In this document: piece after piece, positions 2,719 through 11,765 of the stretch
Layout: each line of letters opens with the position of its first letter
Position numbering within the stretch: position 1 is the stretch's first letter
Translations under genes and position numbers: made by a program
Origin: a virus
IMG/VR virus record: IMGVR_UViG_3300042691_002929
Coordinates: 1 to 23,412 of that record
DNA length: 23,412 nucleotides
Direction: 5' to 3' (one strand)
The notes under the pieces: generated by a model
What the model was told of the DNA's origin: nothing
Database searches by the model: none
The model's input: the letters and a program-made list of their open reading frames with translations, nothing else

Positions 2719-3141
2719 ATGGAACTTAGAACGACAAAATTTGATGTTACCGCCGATAACATCGGTTATTACTTAGGCATCCCCGTTGATATTGAAATTG
2801 ATTATTGGACTGAAAGGCATGATGAAAAGGTCATTGCATGGTATCTTGAGATTGAATCTTCAAAAGATGGTATGCCGTTTATCAAAACACGATTCCAATA
2901 TATTAACATAACTATTCATTGGTCAATTGATAAGGACGATCTTGACGATGATCAATTCGTAAGGCTTAAACTTAATCACGATGTTGAAGAGAAACGTAAC
3001 ACGCTTGAGGGTTCAATAATGATATACACAATCCGCGAAAAGGATAAGAACTGGCGTGTTGATTTCAATATTGATATAATCGGAGGCAATGGGTACTCTG
3101 CGCATATAGACTTTTTGGAAAATAAAATTGAGATAATATGA
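2719..3141 (+). CDS. acidic protein of unknown function
   Basis: A 140-residue protein starting MELRTTKFDV. I reject the longer reading from 2674 because its extra N-terminus (MWVRFPTLP) is translated from the tRNA T-arm-like sequence. The protein is acidic, with 29 Asp/Glu against 17 Lys/Arg and a DKDDLDDDQF stretch near the middle, and alternates polar and hydrophobic residues in a way that suggests mostly beta structure. No catalytic motif, Cys cluster or membrane segment is visible. Its stop overlaps the methyltransferase start (ATGA). An accessory role with the methyltransferase, or a DNA-mimic or anti-restriction role because of the charge, is only a guess. I do not recognise the family. 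Confidence 0.6.
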   Translation: MELRTTKFDVTADNIGYYLGIPVDIEIDYWTERHDEKVIAWYLEIESSKDGMPFIKTRFQYINITIHWSIDKDDLDDDQFVRLKLNHDVEEKRNTLEGSIMIYTIREKDKNWRVDFNIDIIGGNGYSAHIDFLENKIEII

Positions 3142-3938
3142 CGCATGGCTCACTATTTAGCGGAATAGGAGGCTTTGACCTGGCGGCTGAATGGATGGGA
3201 TGGGAGAATAAATTTCATTGCGAATGGAATGAGTTTGGTCAGAAAGTCCTTCATCATTATTGGCCTGAAGCAGAATTATTTACAGACATCACAAAATCAG
3301 ATTTTACTAAATATGCAAACAGAATTGATATTCTCACAGGAGGTTTCCCATGTCAACCATACTCAAGCGCAGGAAAACGACTCGGCAAAGAAGATGACCG
3401 ACATCTCTGGCCGCAAATGCTTAGAACAATTAGAGAAATTCAACCGCGTTGGGTTGTGGGCGAGAACGTTCGCGGCCTTACTAATTGGAATGGAGGGTTG
3501 GTATTCGACGAAGTGCAAGCTGACTTGGAAGCTGAAGGCTACCAAGTGCTCCCGTTTTTACTTCCAGCTTGTGCCGTCAACGCACCAACAGAAGAGATAG
3601 GATCTGGTTTGTTGCCTACTCCAAAAGTTGTGGAAGCTCCATCGGCAAGCTGGGAGAATCGCAAACTAGACAGCAAATACAAACCAGGGGTAACATTAAC
3701 GGACTTGAAGATTTGGGTATTGCTGCCGACACCACGAACATCAGACGAAAGGATGCATTGGAAAACGGAGAATTGGAAAGGCGACGATTTAGGGAGTCAA
3801 ATCAACGAAATGCTTGGCATACGTTCCCATCTGTCTCCCCAATTTGTAATGGAGATGATGGGATTTCCGACCGATTGGACTTTATTACCTTTCCTAAATG
3901 GCGAAACGAATCAATCAAAGCTGGAGGAAATGCAATAG
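3138..3938 (+). CDS. C5-cytosine DNA methyltransferase, N-terminal catalytic part with out-of-frame tail
   Basis: The first ~151 residues are a clear Dcm-type enzyme that transfers methyl from S-adenosylmethionine to cytosine C5. Visible are motif I SLFSGIGGFDLA (from residue 5), motif IV GGFPCQPYS with the catalytic Cys at residue 72, motif VI ENV at 109-111, and the start of motif VIII, LPACAVNAPT. After APT (about 3588-3590) the frame leaves the methyltransferase: the expected RRDRIWFVAY continues in the -1 frame (3569-4012). This frame instead reads GLLPTPKVVE, LLPTPRTSDE and EMMGFPTDWTLLPF to the stop at 3938, so the product has no motif IX or X. A single added base near 3587-3593 would restore a normal enzyme. 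As written it is probably inactive unless complemented by the second piece. Confidence 0.8.
   Translation: MTHGSLFSGIGGFDLAAEWMGWENKFHCEWNEFGQKVLHHYWPEAELFTDITKSDFTKYANRIDILTGGFPCQPYSSAGKRLGKEDDRHLWPQMLRTIREIQPRWVVGENVRGLTNWNGGLVFDEVQADLEAEGYQVLPFLLPACAVNAPTEEIGSGLLPTPKVVEAPSASWENRKLDSKYKPGVTLTDLKIWVLLPTPRTSDERMHWKTENWKGDDLGSQINEMLGIRSHLSPQFVMEMMGFPTDWTLLPFLNGETNQSKLEEMQ
3313..3938 (+). other. overprinted second reading frame inside the C5-methyltransferase
   Basis: In the third + frame an ORF is open from at least 3175 (ATG at 3313) to TAG at 3598-3600. It reads GRKCLEQLEKFNRVGLWART, then EGWYSTKCKLTWKLKATK and SRFYFQLVPSTH. If one base is inserted near 3587-3593 it joins the frame reading GSGLLPTPKVVE through EMMGFPTDW to 3938, making about 250 continuous codons. 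The string KCxLTWKLKxTK...FQLVPST...GLLPTP...MMGFPxxWT is one I remember as a recurring sequence in phage and metagenome proteins, often labelled methyltransferase. The same insertion also repairs the methyltransferase frame. This is either a real overprinted protein or a constrained shadow. Position 3175 opens with TTG; 3313 is the first plausible ATG. Confidence 0.4.
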
Positions 3939-4255: not shown

Positions 4256-4870
4256 ATGCCAACAAGCGAAGTGTTTAACATGGACTGTATGGAAGGGATG
4301 GCGCAATACCCTGACAAGTATTTTGAGCTAGCTATCGTTGATCCGCCGTATGGATTAGGCCAAAAAATATATTCAGGAGGTACAAAAGGATGCAAGTTTC
4401 ATACTTTATTTGGAGAAAATAAATGGGATGACAATATACCTCCTAATGAATATTTTTTGGAATTATTTAGAATAAGTAAAAATCAAATAATTTGGGGAGG
4501 AAATTACTTTCCATTAATGCCAACAAGATGTATTATAATATGGGACAAATTAAAAGGAGATAATAATTTTTCAATGTTTGAACTTGCTTGGACTTATTTT
4601 GATAAGCCAGCAAAAATATATAAAAAAAATTCATCTGATAATGATAAAATACACCCAACACAAAAGCCAATAAAATTATATAGTTGGTTAATAAATAAAT
4701 ACGCAACCCCAGGCGATAAAATACTAGATACCCATTTGGGTAGTGGTTCAAGCCGCATTGCTGCGTATGATCTAGGCTTTGACTTTACCGGTTATGAGCT
4801 TGATAAAGATTACTTTGACGCCCAAAACAAACGATTTAACGATTTCACAATGCAACAAAAACTATTTTAA
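4256..4870 (+). CDS. N6-adenine/N4-cytosine DNA methyltransferase
   Basis: A 204-residue DNA methyltransferase of the beta order: catalytic motif first, AdoMet-binding motif last. Motif IV is DPPYG at residues 29-33; the SAM-binding block is DTHLGSGSS from residue 158, preceded by the conserved IHPTQKPIKLYSWL and followed by GFDFTGYELDKDYF. DPPY points to adenine N6 more than cytosine N4. No restriction endonuclease partner is adjacent, so it likely protects phage DNA from host restriction. The segment from about 4380 to 4700, lying between the two motifs and containing the target-recognition part, is far more AT-rich than the flanks, suggesting that this part was exchanged. It ends 3 bases before the primase gene. 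Confidence 0.9.
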   Translation: MPTSEVFNMDCMEGMAQYPDKYFELAIVDPPYGLGQKIYSGGTKGCKFHTLFGENKWDDNIPPNEYFLELFRISKNQIIWGGNYFPLMPTRCIIIWDKLKGDNNFSMFELAWTYFDKPAKIYKKNSSDNDKIHPTQKPIKLYSWLINKYATPGDKILDTHLGSGSSRIAAYDLGFDFTGYELDKDYFDAQNKRFNDFTMQQKLF

Positions 4871-4873
4871 TAC

Positions 4874-7363
4874 ATGAATTACCTAAGACAAAACATCAAC
4901 GTTATTGCCGTCAACGACAAAAAGCAATCGATATTCCCGTGGAAGCGCTATCAATCCGAAATGATAACCGAGGCTGACTTACAAGCACAAATGAACGATC
5001 CGCGGGCGAAAGGTATCGCCGTTATATGTGGCGCAATATCAAGCGGTCTTGAAGTAATAGACATCGACACCAAGTACGAAACTTATCCGTTATGGGATGA
5101 GATTAAAAGTAAGATCCGCGAGGATATTTACTCAAAGCTGCATATCGTCAAAACGCGTTCAAATGGTTATCACCTATATTATCGATGCGAAGAGATTGAA
5201 GGGAATCAGAAACTAGCTCAACGCCCTCCAACAGACGAAGAGTCAAAAGCAAATCCACAGATCAAATCATATTGCATCATCGAAACGCGTGGCGAAGGTG
5301 GGTATGTTGTGGCTCCGCCTTCGGAAGATTATTCAATTGTGCAAGAGGGTATCAATGTAATATCTAGCGACGAACGTCATGAGCTATTTGAGATTATGCG
5401 CTCATTCAACGAAATCATTGAAGAGGTGCCTATTGAGGCGCACAACCGCCCAAGCTCAAAAGAATACGGCCTTTCACCTTTTGATGACTTCAACAAGCGT
5501 TGCGACTTTGTCGACTTGATGGAGCGCAATGGGTGGAAGAAAGTATTACAAGGTGATCTAAGGACTTACTTCCTACGCCCTGGCGGCACGTCTGAGCAAA
5601 GTGGCAACTATCATAAAGAATTAAACTTGTTCACTGTGTTTAGCGTGAACACGCCTTTTCAAGTTCAAAAGGGTTATAAACCTGCCGCCGTTTACACAAT
5701 CCTCGAACACAATGGCGACTTTAAAGCAGCCGCCCGAGCTTTGCTTGATATGGGTTACGGCGAAAAAAAAACGCCAGTCCCTTCTGCGGTATTGAAGGGG
5801 CTGAGCCAACGCAAGAACGAAGGCCTCTCAAACTTGGACTTAGTTAAATATCTTGTCAAAGAACACGATAAAGACATTGACGACGCTCAAAAAATTGTGC
5901 GCGAGTTCGAGCAATCTGGCGGCCCGGTCATTGAAACGTTTTGGGATCGTGATAAAAAGACGGGTGAGCTGCACATAAATAGATACAAGCTGCAAGTGTT
6001 CCTAACAAATGAAGGCGGCTTCAGGCTTTACTTTTATAACAACCAATCCACATCCTATCGCTTGATCAGGTTAAAGGATGGCTTTGTAGAGGAATCGTCA
6101 ACCGAGCAAGTTAAAAAGTTCATTAAAGATTATGTGAACACCCTACCAGACGAGTTCGACGGCGGTAAGAATCCCCAAGACTTGCTCGAGATTGTATATC
6201 GTGGCTCAAATGTACTTTTCTCGGATGCGTTCTTTGAGTTCTTTGAGCGTGCGAATATACAATTTCTAGAAGATACAAAGGATAAGGCATACTTCCCGTT
6301 TCGCAATGGGGTTGTTGAAGTTACAAAAGATAGTATTGAGTTAAAGACTTACGGAGAGCTCAAACGCTACGTTTGGCGTAGCCATGTAATTGATAGGCAT
6401 ATTATAGTTGATCCGTCAATTGATATTAGTCTAGTTCAATACGCCAAGTTTATAGAGCTTATAAGTGGTCAGAACGTTACAAAGAACACTTACGCCATAT
6501 CATTAATAGGCTATCTCTTGCACAAATATAAAGATCCGTCAAGGCCGTTCGCCGTCATTCTAGCCGAAGAGAATGATAATGAAGAGAAAGGCGGTGGAAC
6601 TGGTAAGGGTATATTCATTAAGGCCCTATCGTACATTGTTAACACGATCCGCGTCGATGGAAAGAACTTTAAAATAGATAAGAACTTCGCTTTTCAACGC
6701 GTTGATATTGATACAAAGATAGTCGCCATTGAAGATACACGTAAGAAAGTTGACTTTGAGGGTTTCTATTCCATAATTACAGAGGGTATAACAGTAGAAA
6801 AAAAGAATCAGGACGAGCTATTTATTCCTTATAAAGATAGTCCGAAGATCATGTTTACGACAAATTTCAGCATCCCAACCAACGGAGTTCACGCAAAAAG
6901 GCGTCAAAGGGTGCTTGAATTTGCACCTTATTTTAGCGATAAGCACACGCCAGAGGACGAATTTGGGAACAAATTATTCGACGGATGGAGCGATGACGAG
7001 TGGAATAGGTTTTTTAATTTCATGTTTTTAGCCGTGAATGACTACCTAGAAAACGGATTGACTGAGCTTCCTTTTAGTGAAAATATGGCTAAAAAAATGG
7101 TACGAAATCAATGCGGCGAAGAGTTCCTTGAATGGTTTTTGGATGCTATAAAAGTTGAAGATTGGGTGTCGGTTGAAGCGCTACATAATGAGTTTTTGAC
7201 CATGTACGGAATGGACAAAAAAGACTACTCAAGACGTCGTTTTATGTTCTCAATTAAACGGTCAAGTGAATTGTTGCAAGTGGAACATGTGGAACAAAAA
7301 GGGGCAAAAGAGCGCAATAAAGTTGCAATAAAATTTGTACACAAAGATTGTTTGCCTTTTTAA
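4874..7363 (+). CDS. primase-polymerase / SF3 replicative helicase
   Basis: An 829-residue two-part replication protein. The N-terminal ~180 residues look like a Prim-Pol domain: GIAVICG, then VIDIDTK (acidic pair near residues 62-64), RSNGYHLYY near 100, and ETRGEGGYVVAPPS. A middle region with YFLRPGGTS, NLFTVFS and TPF resembles other phage primases. The C-terminal part is a D5-like SF3 helicase: Walker A GGGTGKG from residue 573, Walker B IVAIED near 615, and sensor MFTTNFSIP near 662. It would prime and unwind phage DNA. The final ~45 codons contain two inverted iteron copies (7280-7296), so the gene end is part of the presumed origin. The modular call is firm; the exact primase boundaries are approximate. 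Confidence 0.9.
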   Translation: MNYLRQNINVIAVNDKKQSIFPWKRYQSEMITEADLQAQMNDPRAKGIAVICGAISSGLEVIDIDTKYETYPLWDEIKSKIREDIYSKLHIVKTRSNGYHLYYRCEEIEGNQKLAQRPPTDEESKANPQIKSYCIIETRGEGGYVVAPPSEDYSIVQEGINVISSDERHELFEIMRSFNEIIEEVPIEAHNRPSSKEYGLSPFDDFNKRCDFVDLMERNGWKKVLQGDLRTYFLRPGGTSEQSGNYHKELNLFTVFSVNTPFQVQKGYKPAAVYTILEHNGDFKAAARALLDMGYGEKKTPVPSAVLKGLSQRKNEGLSNLDLVKYLVKEHDKDIDDAQKIVREFEQSGGPVIETFWDRDKKTGELHINRYKLQVFLTNEGGFRLYFYNNQSTSYRLIRLKDGFVEESSTEQVKKFIKDYVNTLPDEFDGGKNPQDLLEIVYRGSNVLFSDAFFEFFERANIQFLEDTKDKAYFPFRNGVVEVTKDSIELKTYGELKRYVWRSHVIDRHIIVDPSIDISLVQYAKFIELISGQNVTKNTYAISLIGYLLHKYKDPSRPFAVILAEENDNEEKGGGTGKGIFIKALSYIVNTIRVDGKNFKIDKNFAFQRVDIDTKIVAIEDTRKKVDFEGFYSIITEGITVEKKNQDELFIPYKDSPKIMFTTNFSIPTNGVHAKRRQRVLEFAPYFSDKHTPEDEFGNKLFDGWSDDEWNRFFNFMFLAVNDYLENGLTELPFSENMAKKMVRNQCGEEFLEWFLDAIKVEDWVSVEALHNEFLTMYGMDKKDYSRRRFMFSIKRSSELLQVEHVEQKGAKERNKVAIKFVHKDCLPF

Positions 7364-7504
7364 AGTAAGATATTATGAAAATCTTTAATATCAAAGTCAA
7401 AAGTGTTCCACTTGTTCCACTTGTGTTCCACTTAAAAATGCTCAAGTGGAACACGCAATAAAATGATTATCAACTACTTAAAACCCTTGTTCCACTTGTT
7501 CCAC
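7280..7504 (+). repeat. eight TGTTCCAC iterons, candidate replication origin
   Basis: The 8-mer TGTTCCAC occurs exactly at 7404-7411, 7413-7420, 7424-7431, 7488-7495 and 7497-7504, and its reverse complement GTGGAACA at 7280-7287, 7289-7296 and 7446-7453. Neighbouring copies are 9 or 11 bases apart, near one helical turn. GTGTTCCACTT (7423-7433) and AAGTGGAACAC (7444-7454) form a perfect 11-bp stem with a 10-base loop. An AT-rich stretch (7505-7560) follows. Outside this cluster I saw only one exact copy, at 10985-10992. The repeat shares TCCAC with the DnaA box TTATCCACA. Lying between a primase-helicase gene and a DnaA domain-IV gene, it is a good candidate origin and regulator site. Confidence 0.75.
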
Positions 7505-7521
7505 TTATTTTTATATATTTG
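7496..7521 (+). promoter_or_regulatory. Bacteroidetes-type promoter for the DnaA-like gene
   Basis: TATATTTG at 7514-7521 fits the Bacteroidetes -7 consensus TAnnTTTG exactly. Fifteen bases upstream is TTG (7496-7498) as a partial TTTG -33 element, and this TTG lies at the junction of the last two iterons. Transcription would begin a few bases after 7521 and give a leader of about 55-60 bases, purine-rich, before the ATG at 7586. GGGGAGG at about 7561-7567 looks like a Shine-Dalgarno sequence but is too far from the ATG to serve it. The overlap with iterons suggests that the iteron-binding protein could control this promoter. Confidence 0.5.
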
Positions 7522-7585
7522 GTTAACACTAGTAAAAAGAGAGAGAAAAAAGAGAGTGTAGGGGAGGTAAAAACAAACGAAACAA

Positions 7586-7981
7586 ATGGAACTTAAAAAA
7601 ATCTTATCAGCGGTTAGCGAAATTACAGATGTAGAAAAATCAAAAATCCAAGGCACCGACCGATTCAAAAAAACGATGGCGGCGCGGCACTTGTTTTGCT
7701 ACTTTGCTCGGACTAAAACAAACGCAACTTTATTACAAATTGGGAACATGTTAAACAGACATCATTCAACTGTGATTAACTCCCTTCAGTTAATTTCGGA
7801 CATGATCGATATTGGCGACGAGGACACTAAAAACAGTATACAAAAAATAGACGACTATATTAAACACAAATATCAACAAGATATTATTTTGAAAATAATT
7901 CTGCCATTTGATGTTGATATTGAAAAAGTCAATATATTTTTGAAAAACGAAGCAAAAGCTAAATGTGTAGAGAAGCTATAA
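7586..7981 (+). CDS. stand-alone DnaA domain IV-like DNA-binding protein
   Basis: A 131-residue protein whose first ~95 residues match the DNA-binding domain IV of the bacterial initiator DnaA: a first helix with VSEITDVEKSKIQG, the block AARHLFCYFARTK, then LLQIGNMLNRHHSTVINSL. RHHSTV at residues 58-63 takes the place of the GGRDHSTV signature that reads the DnaA box in the major groove. The DnaA N-terminal interaction domain and AAA+ ATPase are absent, so it can bind DNA but not act as a full initiator. A ~30-residue C-terminal tail has no recognisable motif. Its own promoter region contains the iteron cluster, so it probably binds these repeats as origin-binding protein, autoregulator or both. 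Its end overlaps the sigma-like gene by 19 bases. Confidence 0.85.
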   Translation: MELKKILSAVSEITDVEKSKIQGTDRFKKTMAARHLFCYFARTKTNATLLQIGNMLNRHHSTVINSLQLISDMIDIGDEDTKNSIQKIDDYIKHKYQQDIILKIILPFDVDIEKVNIFLKNEAKAKCVEKL

Positions 7982-8478
7982 CTCAAGTTTATTTGTCGCC
8001 CCAGGTGGATGCCCTTATCAAGAGTGTACGTCCTGAGCATTTACAAGACGATTTAAGGCAGGAAATGGCTTTAGCCTTACTTTCTATTGACTGCAAAAAG
8101 ATAAGTGAAATTTGGGCCTCTAATGGCCTTATAGGGTATGCCATAAAAATCATAACGAATATGGCGTTTAGTTCGACATCGCCTTTTTATAAAAAATTCC
8201 GCAAAAAAGAGTACGATAATGCTATCCAATACCTTCGTAGTTTAGTCATATTACCTGAACTTGACATTAAACTGGCCCATATTGCCGACAACCGCCTCAA
8301 GCAAAAGTATCAAGAGGATGAACTTCAAGCTCACGAATCGATACTTTTTACAAAATATGTTGAACTTAGGTCATGTAAAAAGGTGGCCGACTTTTATAAC
8401 ATCCCAGAAAAACACGTTAAAGACGTGATTAAGAAAACTAAAAAAGAATTGAAACAATTATGTATATCACAATTTTAG
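7963..8478 (+). CDS. RNA polymerase sigma factor-like protein
   Basis: A 171-residue protein resembling small sigma-70/ECF-like proteins of Bacteroidetes phages. The N-terminal half has HLQDDLRQEMALALL, similar to the start of sigma region 2, followed by GYAIKIITNMAFSSTSPFYKKFRKK, the usual position of -10 recognition. The C-terminal part, KKVADFYNIPEKHVKDVIKK, is a helix-turn-helix like region 4, which would recognise a -35-type element. It overlaps the DnaA-like gene by 19 bases, so the two are likely made together, linking replication with a later transcription programme. A plain helix-turn-helix regulator is the alternative. The similarity is at the level of the family pattern only. Confidence 0.65.
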   Translation: MCREAITQVYLSPQVDALIKSVRPEHLQDDLRQEMALALLSIDCKKISEIWASNGLIGYAIKIITNMAFSSTSPFYKKFRKKEYDNAIQYLRSLVILPELDIKLAHIADNRLKQKYQEDELQAHESILFTKYVELRSCKKVADFYNIPEKHVKDVIKKTKKELKQLCISQF

Positions 8479-10609: not shown

Positions 10610-11765
10610 GATTAAGCTACCTAAGCCACATGAAAAGCAGTTAGAAGTAATTAAGTCAGATTCCCGCTTTCGGGTTATGATGGCTGGGCGTAGGTTCGGG
10701 AAGTCGGTGATTAGTCAAAACATAGCGATTGAGAGCGCGTTAAAGCGTCAATACGTTGCGTATATCACGCCTACTTACCAATTGGGTAAGATGTTTTTTA
10801 AAGAGATATGCAAGCAATTGCCCGACAAGGTGTACAAAAAGAACGAATCGGACTTGTATATCAACTTTGTAACCGGTGGGAATATCCGCTTTTATACGGG
10901 TGAGCGTTTGGATGCTATGCGTGGTACAAAGTACCATTTAGTAATAATTGACGAGGCTAGCTACATTGCAAACCTTGAGGATGGGTGGAACAATTCAATA
11001 AGGCCAACGCTTACGGACTATAAAGGTAAGGCGATATTCCTAAGCACGCCGAGGGGTAAGAACTACTTTTATAGCTTGTTCATGCGGGGGGGCGAGCCAT
11101 CGTGGCAATCATTTAAGTTCACTACTTACGACAATCCGCATATTGATCCAACGGAGGTTGACGAAGCACGGGCGCAATTGCCAAGCGTAGTGTTCGAGCA
11201 AGAGTACCTAGCGAATCCGATGGAAAACGCAGCCAACCCGTTTGGTAGCGAATTTATCATAGCTTGCACACGGGAAACAAAAGGTGTGGCGGCATATTAT
11301 GGGATAGACTTAGCTAAGTCTGTGGACTGGACTGTGATAATTGGAATGGATAAGATGGGCAATGTGGTTCACTTCGAGCGGTTTCAAAAGGACTGGATGC
11401 AGACAAAAGAGGCAATCTTGAGGCTACCTAAAAACTTGCCGGTTGTTATTGATAGCACGGGCGTAGGGGATGCCATTGTCGAAGAGTTACAAAAAAAGTT
11501 TAGCAATATGCACGGGTTCAAGTTCACATCCGTAAGCAAGCAGCAACTTTTGGAGGCGTTGTCTAGTTCAATTCAAACAAAGTCAATATCTTACCCTGAC
11601 GGACCGATCAGGCAAGAGCTTGAGATATTTGAGTATAAGTTCACGCCTACGGGTGTGAGGTACTCGGCGCCCGATGGGTTCCATGATGACTGTGTAATAG
11701 CCTTAGCCTTAGCCAATAAGTGCCGACTTGATCATAAGGCAGTGGGTAAGTACCACGTAATCTAA
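10599..11765 (+). CDS. terL: terminase large subunit
   Basis: A 388-residue packaging motor with ATPase and nuclease halves. Walker A is AGRRFGKS at residues 29-36, Walker B VIIDEAS near 115-121, and the coupling motif FLSTPRGK follows. The nuclease, which has an RNase H-like fold, shows its acidic residues in GIDLAKSVDWT near 236, IDSTGVGD near 285 and DGFHDDCV near 359. The length is on the short side but all catalytic blocks are present. It drives DNA into the prohead through the portal and cuts concatemers. One isolated iteron-like GTGGAACA lies inside it (10985-10992), probably by chance. Confidence 0.95.
   Translation: MNLEIKLPKPHEKQLEVIKSDSRFRVMMAGRRFGKSVISQNIAIESALKRQYVAYITPTYQLGKMFFKEICKQLPDKVYKKNESDLYINFVTGGNIRFYTGERLDAMRGTKYHLVIIDEASYIANLEDGWNNSIRPTLTDYKGKAIFLSTPRGKNYFYSLFMRGGEPSWQSFKFTTYDNPHIDPTEVDEARAQLPSVVFEQEYLANPMENAANPFGSEFIIACTRETKGVAAYYGIDLAKSVDWTVIIGMDKMGNVVHFERFQKDWMQTKEAILRLPKNLPVVIDSTGVGDAIVEELQKKFSNMHGFKFTSVSKQQLLEALSSSIQTKSISYPDGPIRQELEIFEYKFTPTGVRYSAPDGFHDDCVIALALANKCRLDHKAVGKYHVI

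Follow-up and report, generated by a model that had tools for sequence, protein, structure and literature searches.

Positions 7280-7530 of the viral record IMGVR_UViG_3300042691_002929, analysed here as a stretch of 23,412 bases (the window) that carries terminase and portal genes as well as replication genes, quite probably form a tailed-phage replication origin of the kind known from Staphylococcus aureus pathogenicity islands (SaPIs), staphylococcal cassette chromosome mec (SCCmec) elements and P4, in which short repeats (iterons) would be read by the winged helix of the phage's own primase-helicase and not by the product of the neighbouring gene, a lone DnaA domain IV protein. The repeat array is likely a replication origin and the helicase likely the motor at it; the DnaA-like protein is unlikely to be the iteron reader. 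A preliminary description, made from the sequence alone, had noticed the array and assigned its recognition to the DnaA-like protein. Given the copy counts, the layout and the DnaA domain IV match, the observation itself is sound, with the correction that the array starts inside the helicase gene. The features concerned are the following.

4874-7363, forward strand: Prim-Pol/superfamily 3 (SF3)-type helicase of 829 residues, the proposed all-in-one initiator (Pfam PF09250, 6.5e-14; PF19263, 1.1e-7)
7079-7339, forward strand: codons of the C-terminal winged helix (residues ~736-822), the proposed iteron reader on the basis of an AlphaFold model and co-variation
~7232-7273, forward strand: predicted recognition helix KKDYSRRRFMFSIK, within the winged-helix codons
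7280-7287, reverse strand: iteron 1, exact TGTTCCAC, within the helicase open reading frame (ORF)
7289-7296, reverse strand: iteron 2, exact TGTTCCAC, within the helicase ORF
7404-7411, forward strand: iteron 3, exact TGTTCCAC
7413-7420, forward strand: iteron 4, exact TGTTCCAC
7424-7431, forward strand: iteron 5, exact TGTTCCAC
7446-7453, reverse strand: iteron 6, exact TGTTCCAC
7464-7472, strandless: palindromic spacer TGATTATCA, separating the iteron groups
7488-7495, forward strand: iteron 7, exact TGTTCCAC, first of a tandem pair near the AT-rich tract
7497-7504, forward strand: iteron 8, exact TGTTCCAC, second of the tandem pair, running into the AT-rich tract
7505-7530, strandless: AT-rich tract (85% AT), candidate unwinding element
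7586-7981, forward strand: stand-alone DnaA domain IV protein of 131 residues (PF08299, 1.4e-15; model predicted local distance difference test (pLDDT) 92.6; best PDB matches 3pvp and 1j1v)

Nine copies of TGTTCCAC occur in the whole window, against a mean of 0.52 and a maximum of 3 in 100 dinucleotide shuffles. Eight of these fall within 225 bp (7280-7504) in both orientations, as the preliminary description had reported, with start-to-start distances of 9-11 bp inside the sub-clusters, and the ninth is isolated at 10985 on the reverse strand, away from the array. The true iteron unit in the window is 9-11 bp long and reads (T)TGTTCCACT(T). The array had been placed between the helicase gene and the DnaA-like gene, which holds for iterons 3-8 but not for the copies at 7280 and 7289, which lie inside the helicase ORF (stop at 7363); only 1.6% of synonymous recodings of the last 60 helicase codons yield as many copies as the two found there. 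The AT-rich tract said to follow the array is indeed present, and the AT content of 7461-7520 ranks in the top 3% among 60-bp windows. The resemblance of the array to a replication origin is upheld by the analysis, and the SF3-type helicase is a natural source of the ATP-driven unwinding that had been ascribed to it. Two purine-rich repeats, AGTAAAAAGAGAG and AGAAAAAAGAGAG, occupy 7531-7556, between the AT-rich tract and the DnaA-like gene.

Relatives were collected via helicase searches (~40, then ~80 loci, designated by L numbers) and an alignment. The layout is kept almost everywhere, and about 30 distinct loci carry differing iterons. One or two inverted iterons in the last helicase codons are followed, after the stop, by three to five direct iterons at 9-12 bp spacing, a TGATNATCA-like spacer, two tandem iterons and, in most loci, a T/A run; TGAT(A/T)ATCA stands at the spacer position in 17 of 29 distinct relatives. 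The iterons include TGTACCACT in L124, TGTACCGCT in L138, TGTGCTACT in L161, TGTAATCGA in L144, TGTGCACGA in L140, TGTAACCGA in L145, GGTACGCGA in L123, L151 and others, GGTACGTCA in L126, TTAACATCA in L134 and TGTAGTCCA in L205, and the inverted iterons inside the gene vary in step with the intergenic ones. Copy number is 4-14 in most loci, well above shuffles, and comes within reach of the largest shuffle in L145, L224 and L226. The iterons lie directly downstream of the helicase gene, as they do in origins of the SaPI Rep/Cch2 type, and they stay there when the DnaA gene is elsewhere: it lies ~7 kb from the iterons in L145, where the iteron cluster adjoins the helicase, and 5-9 kb from them in L233-L236 (on the opposite strand in L233 and L236), with the cluster again adjoining the helicase in L233 and a similar short repeat pair in L235. 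In L123, L132, L145, L155 and others, repeated tracts of the GGGGTTTTTGG type, possibly G-quadruplex forming, occupy the gap from the iterons to the DnaA-like gene; they are absent in the window. In L239 and L240, a distant Prim-Pol helicase has TTGATGGC iterons, several of which lie within the final codons of the helicase; a DnaA domain IV gene comes next, and its HHSTV motif is identical to that of the window.

Co-variation across 31 loci (26 after dereplication) points to the helicase as the reader of these repeats. Iteron distance correlates with helicase winged-helix residues 755-793 (r=0.49, p=0.0005, permutation test) and shows no correlation with the DnaA-like protein (r=0.00); the partial correlations are 0.51 for the winged helix and -0.17 for the DnaA-like protein, and the values after dereplication are 0.45 and -0.01, respectively. 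Residues 755-793 were chosen because their codons precede the in-gene iterons, so that the correlation cannot arise from codons common to both. The whole winged helix also outdoes the helicase core (partial correlation 0.37 given the core, p=0.001). In loci with CACT/CGCT-type iterons, S/T-R-x-R-Y/F and a Lys are found near the end of the recognition helix; at that place most loci of the CGA/TCA type carry a hydrophobic and an acidic residue instead. The set amounts to a large natural series of origin/initiator pairs, with ~30 distinct loci and 14 or more iteron sequences, from which the code by which a replicative helicase recognises DNA could be read.

Several observations weigh against this interpretation. 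L124 and L138 have one and the same recognition helix, yet every iteron of one differs from those of the other by a single base (CCACT vs CCGCT), so that the choice of iteron is not explained residue by residue, and the helix KKDYSVKRFTKG accompanies several iterons within one clade. The permutation p-values ignore shared ancestry, and the CACT group may represent a single clade; eight of the iteron consensuses were set by hand. GC skew, which had been proposed as a check on origin position, has no turning point near 7.4 kb of the window and is uninformative as an origin marker. Finally, the DnaA-like gene lies directly downstream in 69 of the 74 loci with enough downstream flank, starting 165-530 bp (in one case 813 bp) past the helicase stop, which could mean that its product also works at this origin.

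The primase-helicase consists of an N-terminal Prim-Pol domain, a DUF5906 helicase core and a C-terminal winged helix. In an AlphaFold model of residues 340-829, the C-terminal domain has the order H-H-H-helix-beta-beta (helices and a two-strand wing), with pLDDT mostly 84-91 across the winged-helix block and dropping towards the very end of the chain; for part of the ATPase core the model is poor, with low pLDDT. The nearest solved fold is that of the SaPI5 primase-helicase (7OLA/7OM0; Foldseek 7.3e-8; VIA Z 15.4 over 359 residues, root-mean-square deviation 4.8), the VIA alignment extending to model residue 474-477, and the NrS-1 and PriRep1-double-stranded DNA structures rank below it. Sequence identity to SaPI5 Rep is only ~14%, and a PDB sequence search with the helicase profile gave no match where the fold search did. 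The P4-family primase C-terminal profile TIGR01613 scores 16.6 bits (E 0.0027), below its curated cut-off of 108.7 bits. As modelled, the protein has the SF3/D5-type helicase fold of a SaPI Rep/Cch2-type initiator, and its C-terminal winged helix is predicted to be of the kind that binds double-stranded DNA.

The fold match to SaPI5 and the precedents of SaPI/Cch2, P4 and pRN1 make a self-loading helicase origin the economical reading. The C-terminal domain of Cch2 binds iterons downstream of its gene, like SaPI Rep (PMC7581432). These systems share with the window a helicase of the D5/primase C-terminal class, a C-terminal DNA-binding domain and iterons directly past the initiator's own gene (PMC7581432), whereas the present system belongs to a tailed phage, has part of its iterons inside the helicase ORF, changes its iteron sequence fast, carries a Prim-Pol domain fused in front and adjoins a stand-alone DnaA domain IV gene. 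P4 alpha, as summarised in a passage of PMC4234260 citing Yeo 2002, unites primase, helicase and a winged helix in a single chain, and its origin repeats are bound by the winged helix. The phage protein combines the same three parts and matches the P4 primase C-terminal family weakly, but the primase of P4 alpha is of the TOPRIM type (PMC4234260) and the TIGR01613 score is far under the cut-off. ORF904 of pRN1 joins Prim-Pol, SF3 helicase and winged helix, and the origin follows shortly after the gene (PMC4234260); the domains and the placement are those of the window, although in pRN1 a stem-loop takes the place of iterons. The phage system is best described as a self-loading helicase origin of known type in a variant form, always accompanied by a DnaA domain IV protein whose presence is unexplained. 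In the order of events that we infer, the winged helix would bind the iterons within and just past its own gene, the iteron groups flanking the spacer would place helicase assemblies beside the AT-rich tract, the SF3 motor would melt this tract and the Prim-Pol domain would prime; the neighbouring DnaA domain IV protein would be a constant companion and not the iteron reader.

The identity of this companion is clear from profile and fold, which agree with its earlier description as a lone DnaA domain IV without AAA+ domain. Bac_DnaA_C (PF08299) is its sole family above cut-off (57.5 bits vs a cut-off of 31.5), its model resembles DnaA domain IV in complex with DnaA-box DNA (3pvp, 1j1v), and it carries an RHHSTV motif. 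It thus has the fold and contact residues of bacterial DnaA domain IV but is devoid of domains I-III, including the AAA+ domain III, and the relatives' iterons are not conserved as DnaA boxes. Positions R26, R34 and H60, which we take to be the equivalents of E. coli DnaA contacts, are invariant in relatives, and a C-terminal extension is also conserved among them. All 18 genomes tested that carry a helicase of this type also encode the lone domain. In other phages it is encoded close to a DnaB-type helicase or a family A polymerase, and no iterons were found upstream of it there; L263, L267, L288 and L293 are cases with a DnaB-type helicase and no repeats found upstream. Its constancy beside helicases of two unrelated classes raises a testable question on its target. 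Canonical DnaA boxes (TTATNCACA) show no enrichment in the window, which has 6 sites at up to one mismatch vs 6.0 expected and none in the array, nor, above a reversed-pattern control, in the relatives' genomes; the DnaA-box cluster of an oriC-type origin is thus absent from the window. In L123, L189 and L254 an exact TTATCCACA precedes the DnaA-like gene by 36-62 bp (3 of 68 regions vs 0.1 expected), hinting at autoregulation in some relatives. The lone domain has probably retained a specificity of the DnaA-box type, with a target other than the iterons; it may bind the origin at a second site, regulate its own expression or compete for the DnaA boxes of the host. A tentative and somewhat doubtful proposal is that it is an obligate partner of the self-loading helicase origin, either as a second-site co-initiator or as an occupier of host oriC boxes that stops host initiation in the phage's favour; the latter idea draws on a DnaA-box specificity that is kept, yet in a phage without boxes. 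No description of a tailed-phage protein of this kind was found in the open-access literature, and a viral_contigs protein search with the 131-residue protein alone gave no matches.

Iterons of the same family also occur in phages without this protein. In Flavobacterium phage lotta8-1, TTGGAACA/AGTGGAACA repeats begin a few bases past the stop of a VirE helicase gene, and PF08299 is absent from its 34.7-kb genome. L032 and L093, records without PF08299, have Prim-Pol followed by a VapE helicase, TGTTCCACG iterons, the spacer TTGATATATCAA and a tandem pair, and L023, a short record in which PF08299 is absent, encodes a DUF927 helicase whose end is formed by a Cch-type helix-turn-helix domain, with TGTTCCAC repeats after the gene. 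The occurrence of this iteron family beside VapE/VirE or DUF927-Cch helicases without DnaA domain IV speaks against the DnaA-like protein as its reader. Marine phages (L018, L046, L078, L081, L085, L166-L171 and others) carry a two-armed, mirrored TGTTCCAC array, in which two or three direct copies are combined with an inverted one ~200 bp apart, and PF08299 is absent in the tested records (L085, L169, L171 and others). These arrays (L018, L046, L081 and others) were not used as evidence for a helicase reader because no helicase gene adjoins them in the available sequence; in L007, a VapE gene is present in the record and was not seen beside the array. A looser pattern, TGTTCCACNTGTTCCAC, was dropped in favour of a two-orientation pattern, as it matched mostly protein-coding repeats in one strand and frame, and the human-gut records H39 and H40 were set aside, the one examined being a full-length host DnaA.

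The proposal that the iterons are DnaA boxes in altered form, recognised by the lone DnaA domain IV, which would thereby mark the origin for the SF3 helicase to take over, is tempting in view of its near-constant position past the helicase gene, its invariant contact residues and the TCCAC of the repeat, which is part of TTATCCACA, but it now appears very improbable. The co-variation between repeat and HHSTV residues suggested as a check failed: iterons change under an unchanged DHTT, the DHTTV motif being found with nine iterons, and motifs change under unchanged repeats, iteron GGTACGCGA occurring with six of them. The HHSTV of the window co-occurs with TGTTCCACT and also with TGTGCTACT (L161) and GGTACACGA (L202), and L202 and L187 are identical in their last 90 helicase residues and in their iterons (GGTACACGA) but differ in DnaA motif (HHSTV vs DHATV). 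Judged from these sequences, the repeat does not follow the DnaA recognition motif as it would in an oriC-type origin. Most relatives lose TCCAC as the iteron changes completely, which argues against a derivation of the repeats from DnaA boxes, and TGTTCCAC arrays are carried by phages without PF08299. Origin marking by the DnaA-like protein is accordingly not supported, the iterons co-varying with the helicase winged helix instead, and a tempting, probably wrong assignment of the lone domain as origin reader is corrected.

A two-protein origin, in which the winged helix reads the iterons and DnaA domain IV, a co-initiator or regulator, binds a nearby element such as the TGATNATCA spacer or a box ahead of the DnaA-like gene, would accommodate the near-constant gene neighbourhood, the spacer conserved in 17 of 29 relatives and the exact TTATCCACA upstream of the gene in three loci. 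We regard it as rather unlikely: the DnaA-like gene is displaced in L145 and L233-L236, the closely similar spacer TTGATATATCAA is present in L032 and L093 without PF08299, DnaA boxes are enriched neither in the phage genomes nor in the window, and phages with DnaB-type helicases carry a like protein with no iterons found upstream. Iteron-like arrays also act as operators and centromeres. Here the array precedes the DnaA-like gene at a short distance from its start, and an operator, partition or packaging site in place of an origin would fit these known uses. Such a role is nevertheless improbable, as the array adjoins and co-varies with the primase-helicase, an AT-rich tract stands beside the tandem pair and the array is placed like known SaPI/Cch2 origins (PMC7581432). 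In the reading preferred here, the iterons would be bound by the helicase's own winged helix and the array would act as the origin.

Further genes surround the primase-helicase and its companion. Upstream of the former lie genes for a C5-cytosine methylase and an N4/N6 DNA methylase (3138-3938 and 4256-4870), with a VRR-NUC nuclease gene between them. A 171-residue ORF at 7963-8478, overlapping the end of the DnaA-like gene, matches sigma-70/extracytoplasmic function (ECF) families weakly (NCBIfam 6.6e-5, below cut-off) and may encode a possible phage sigma factor.

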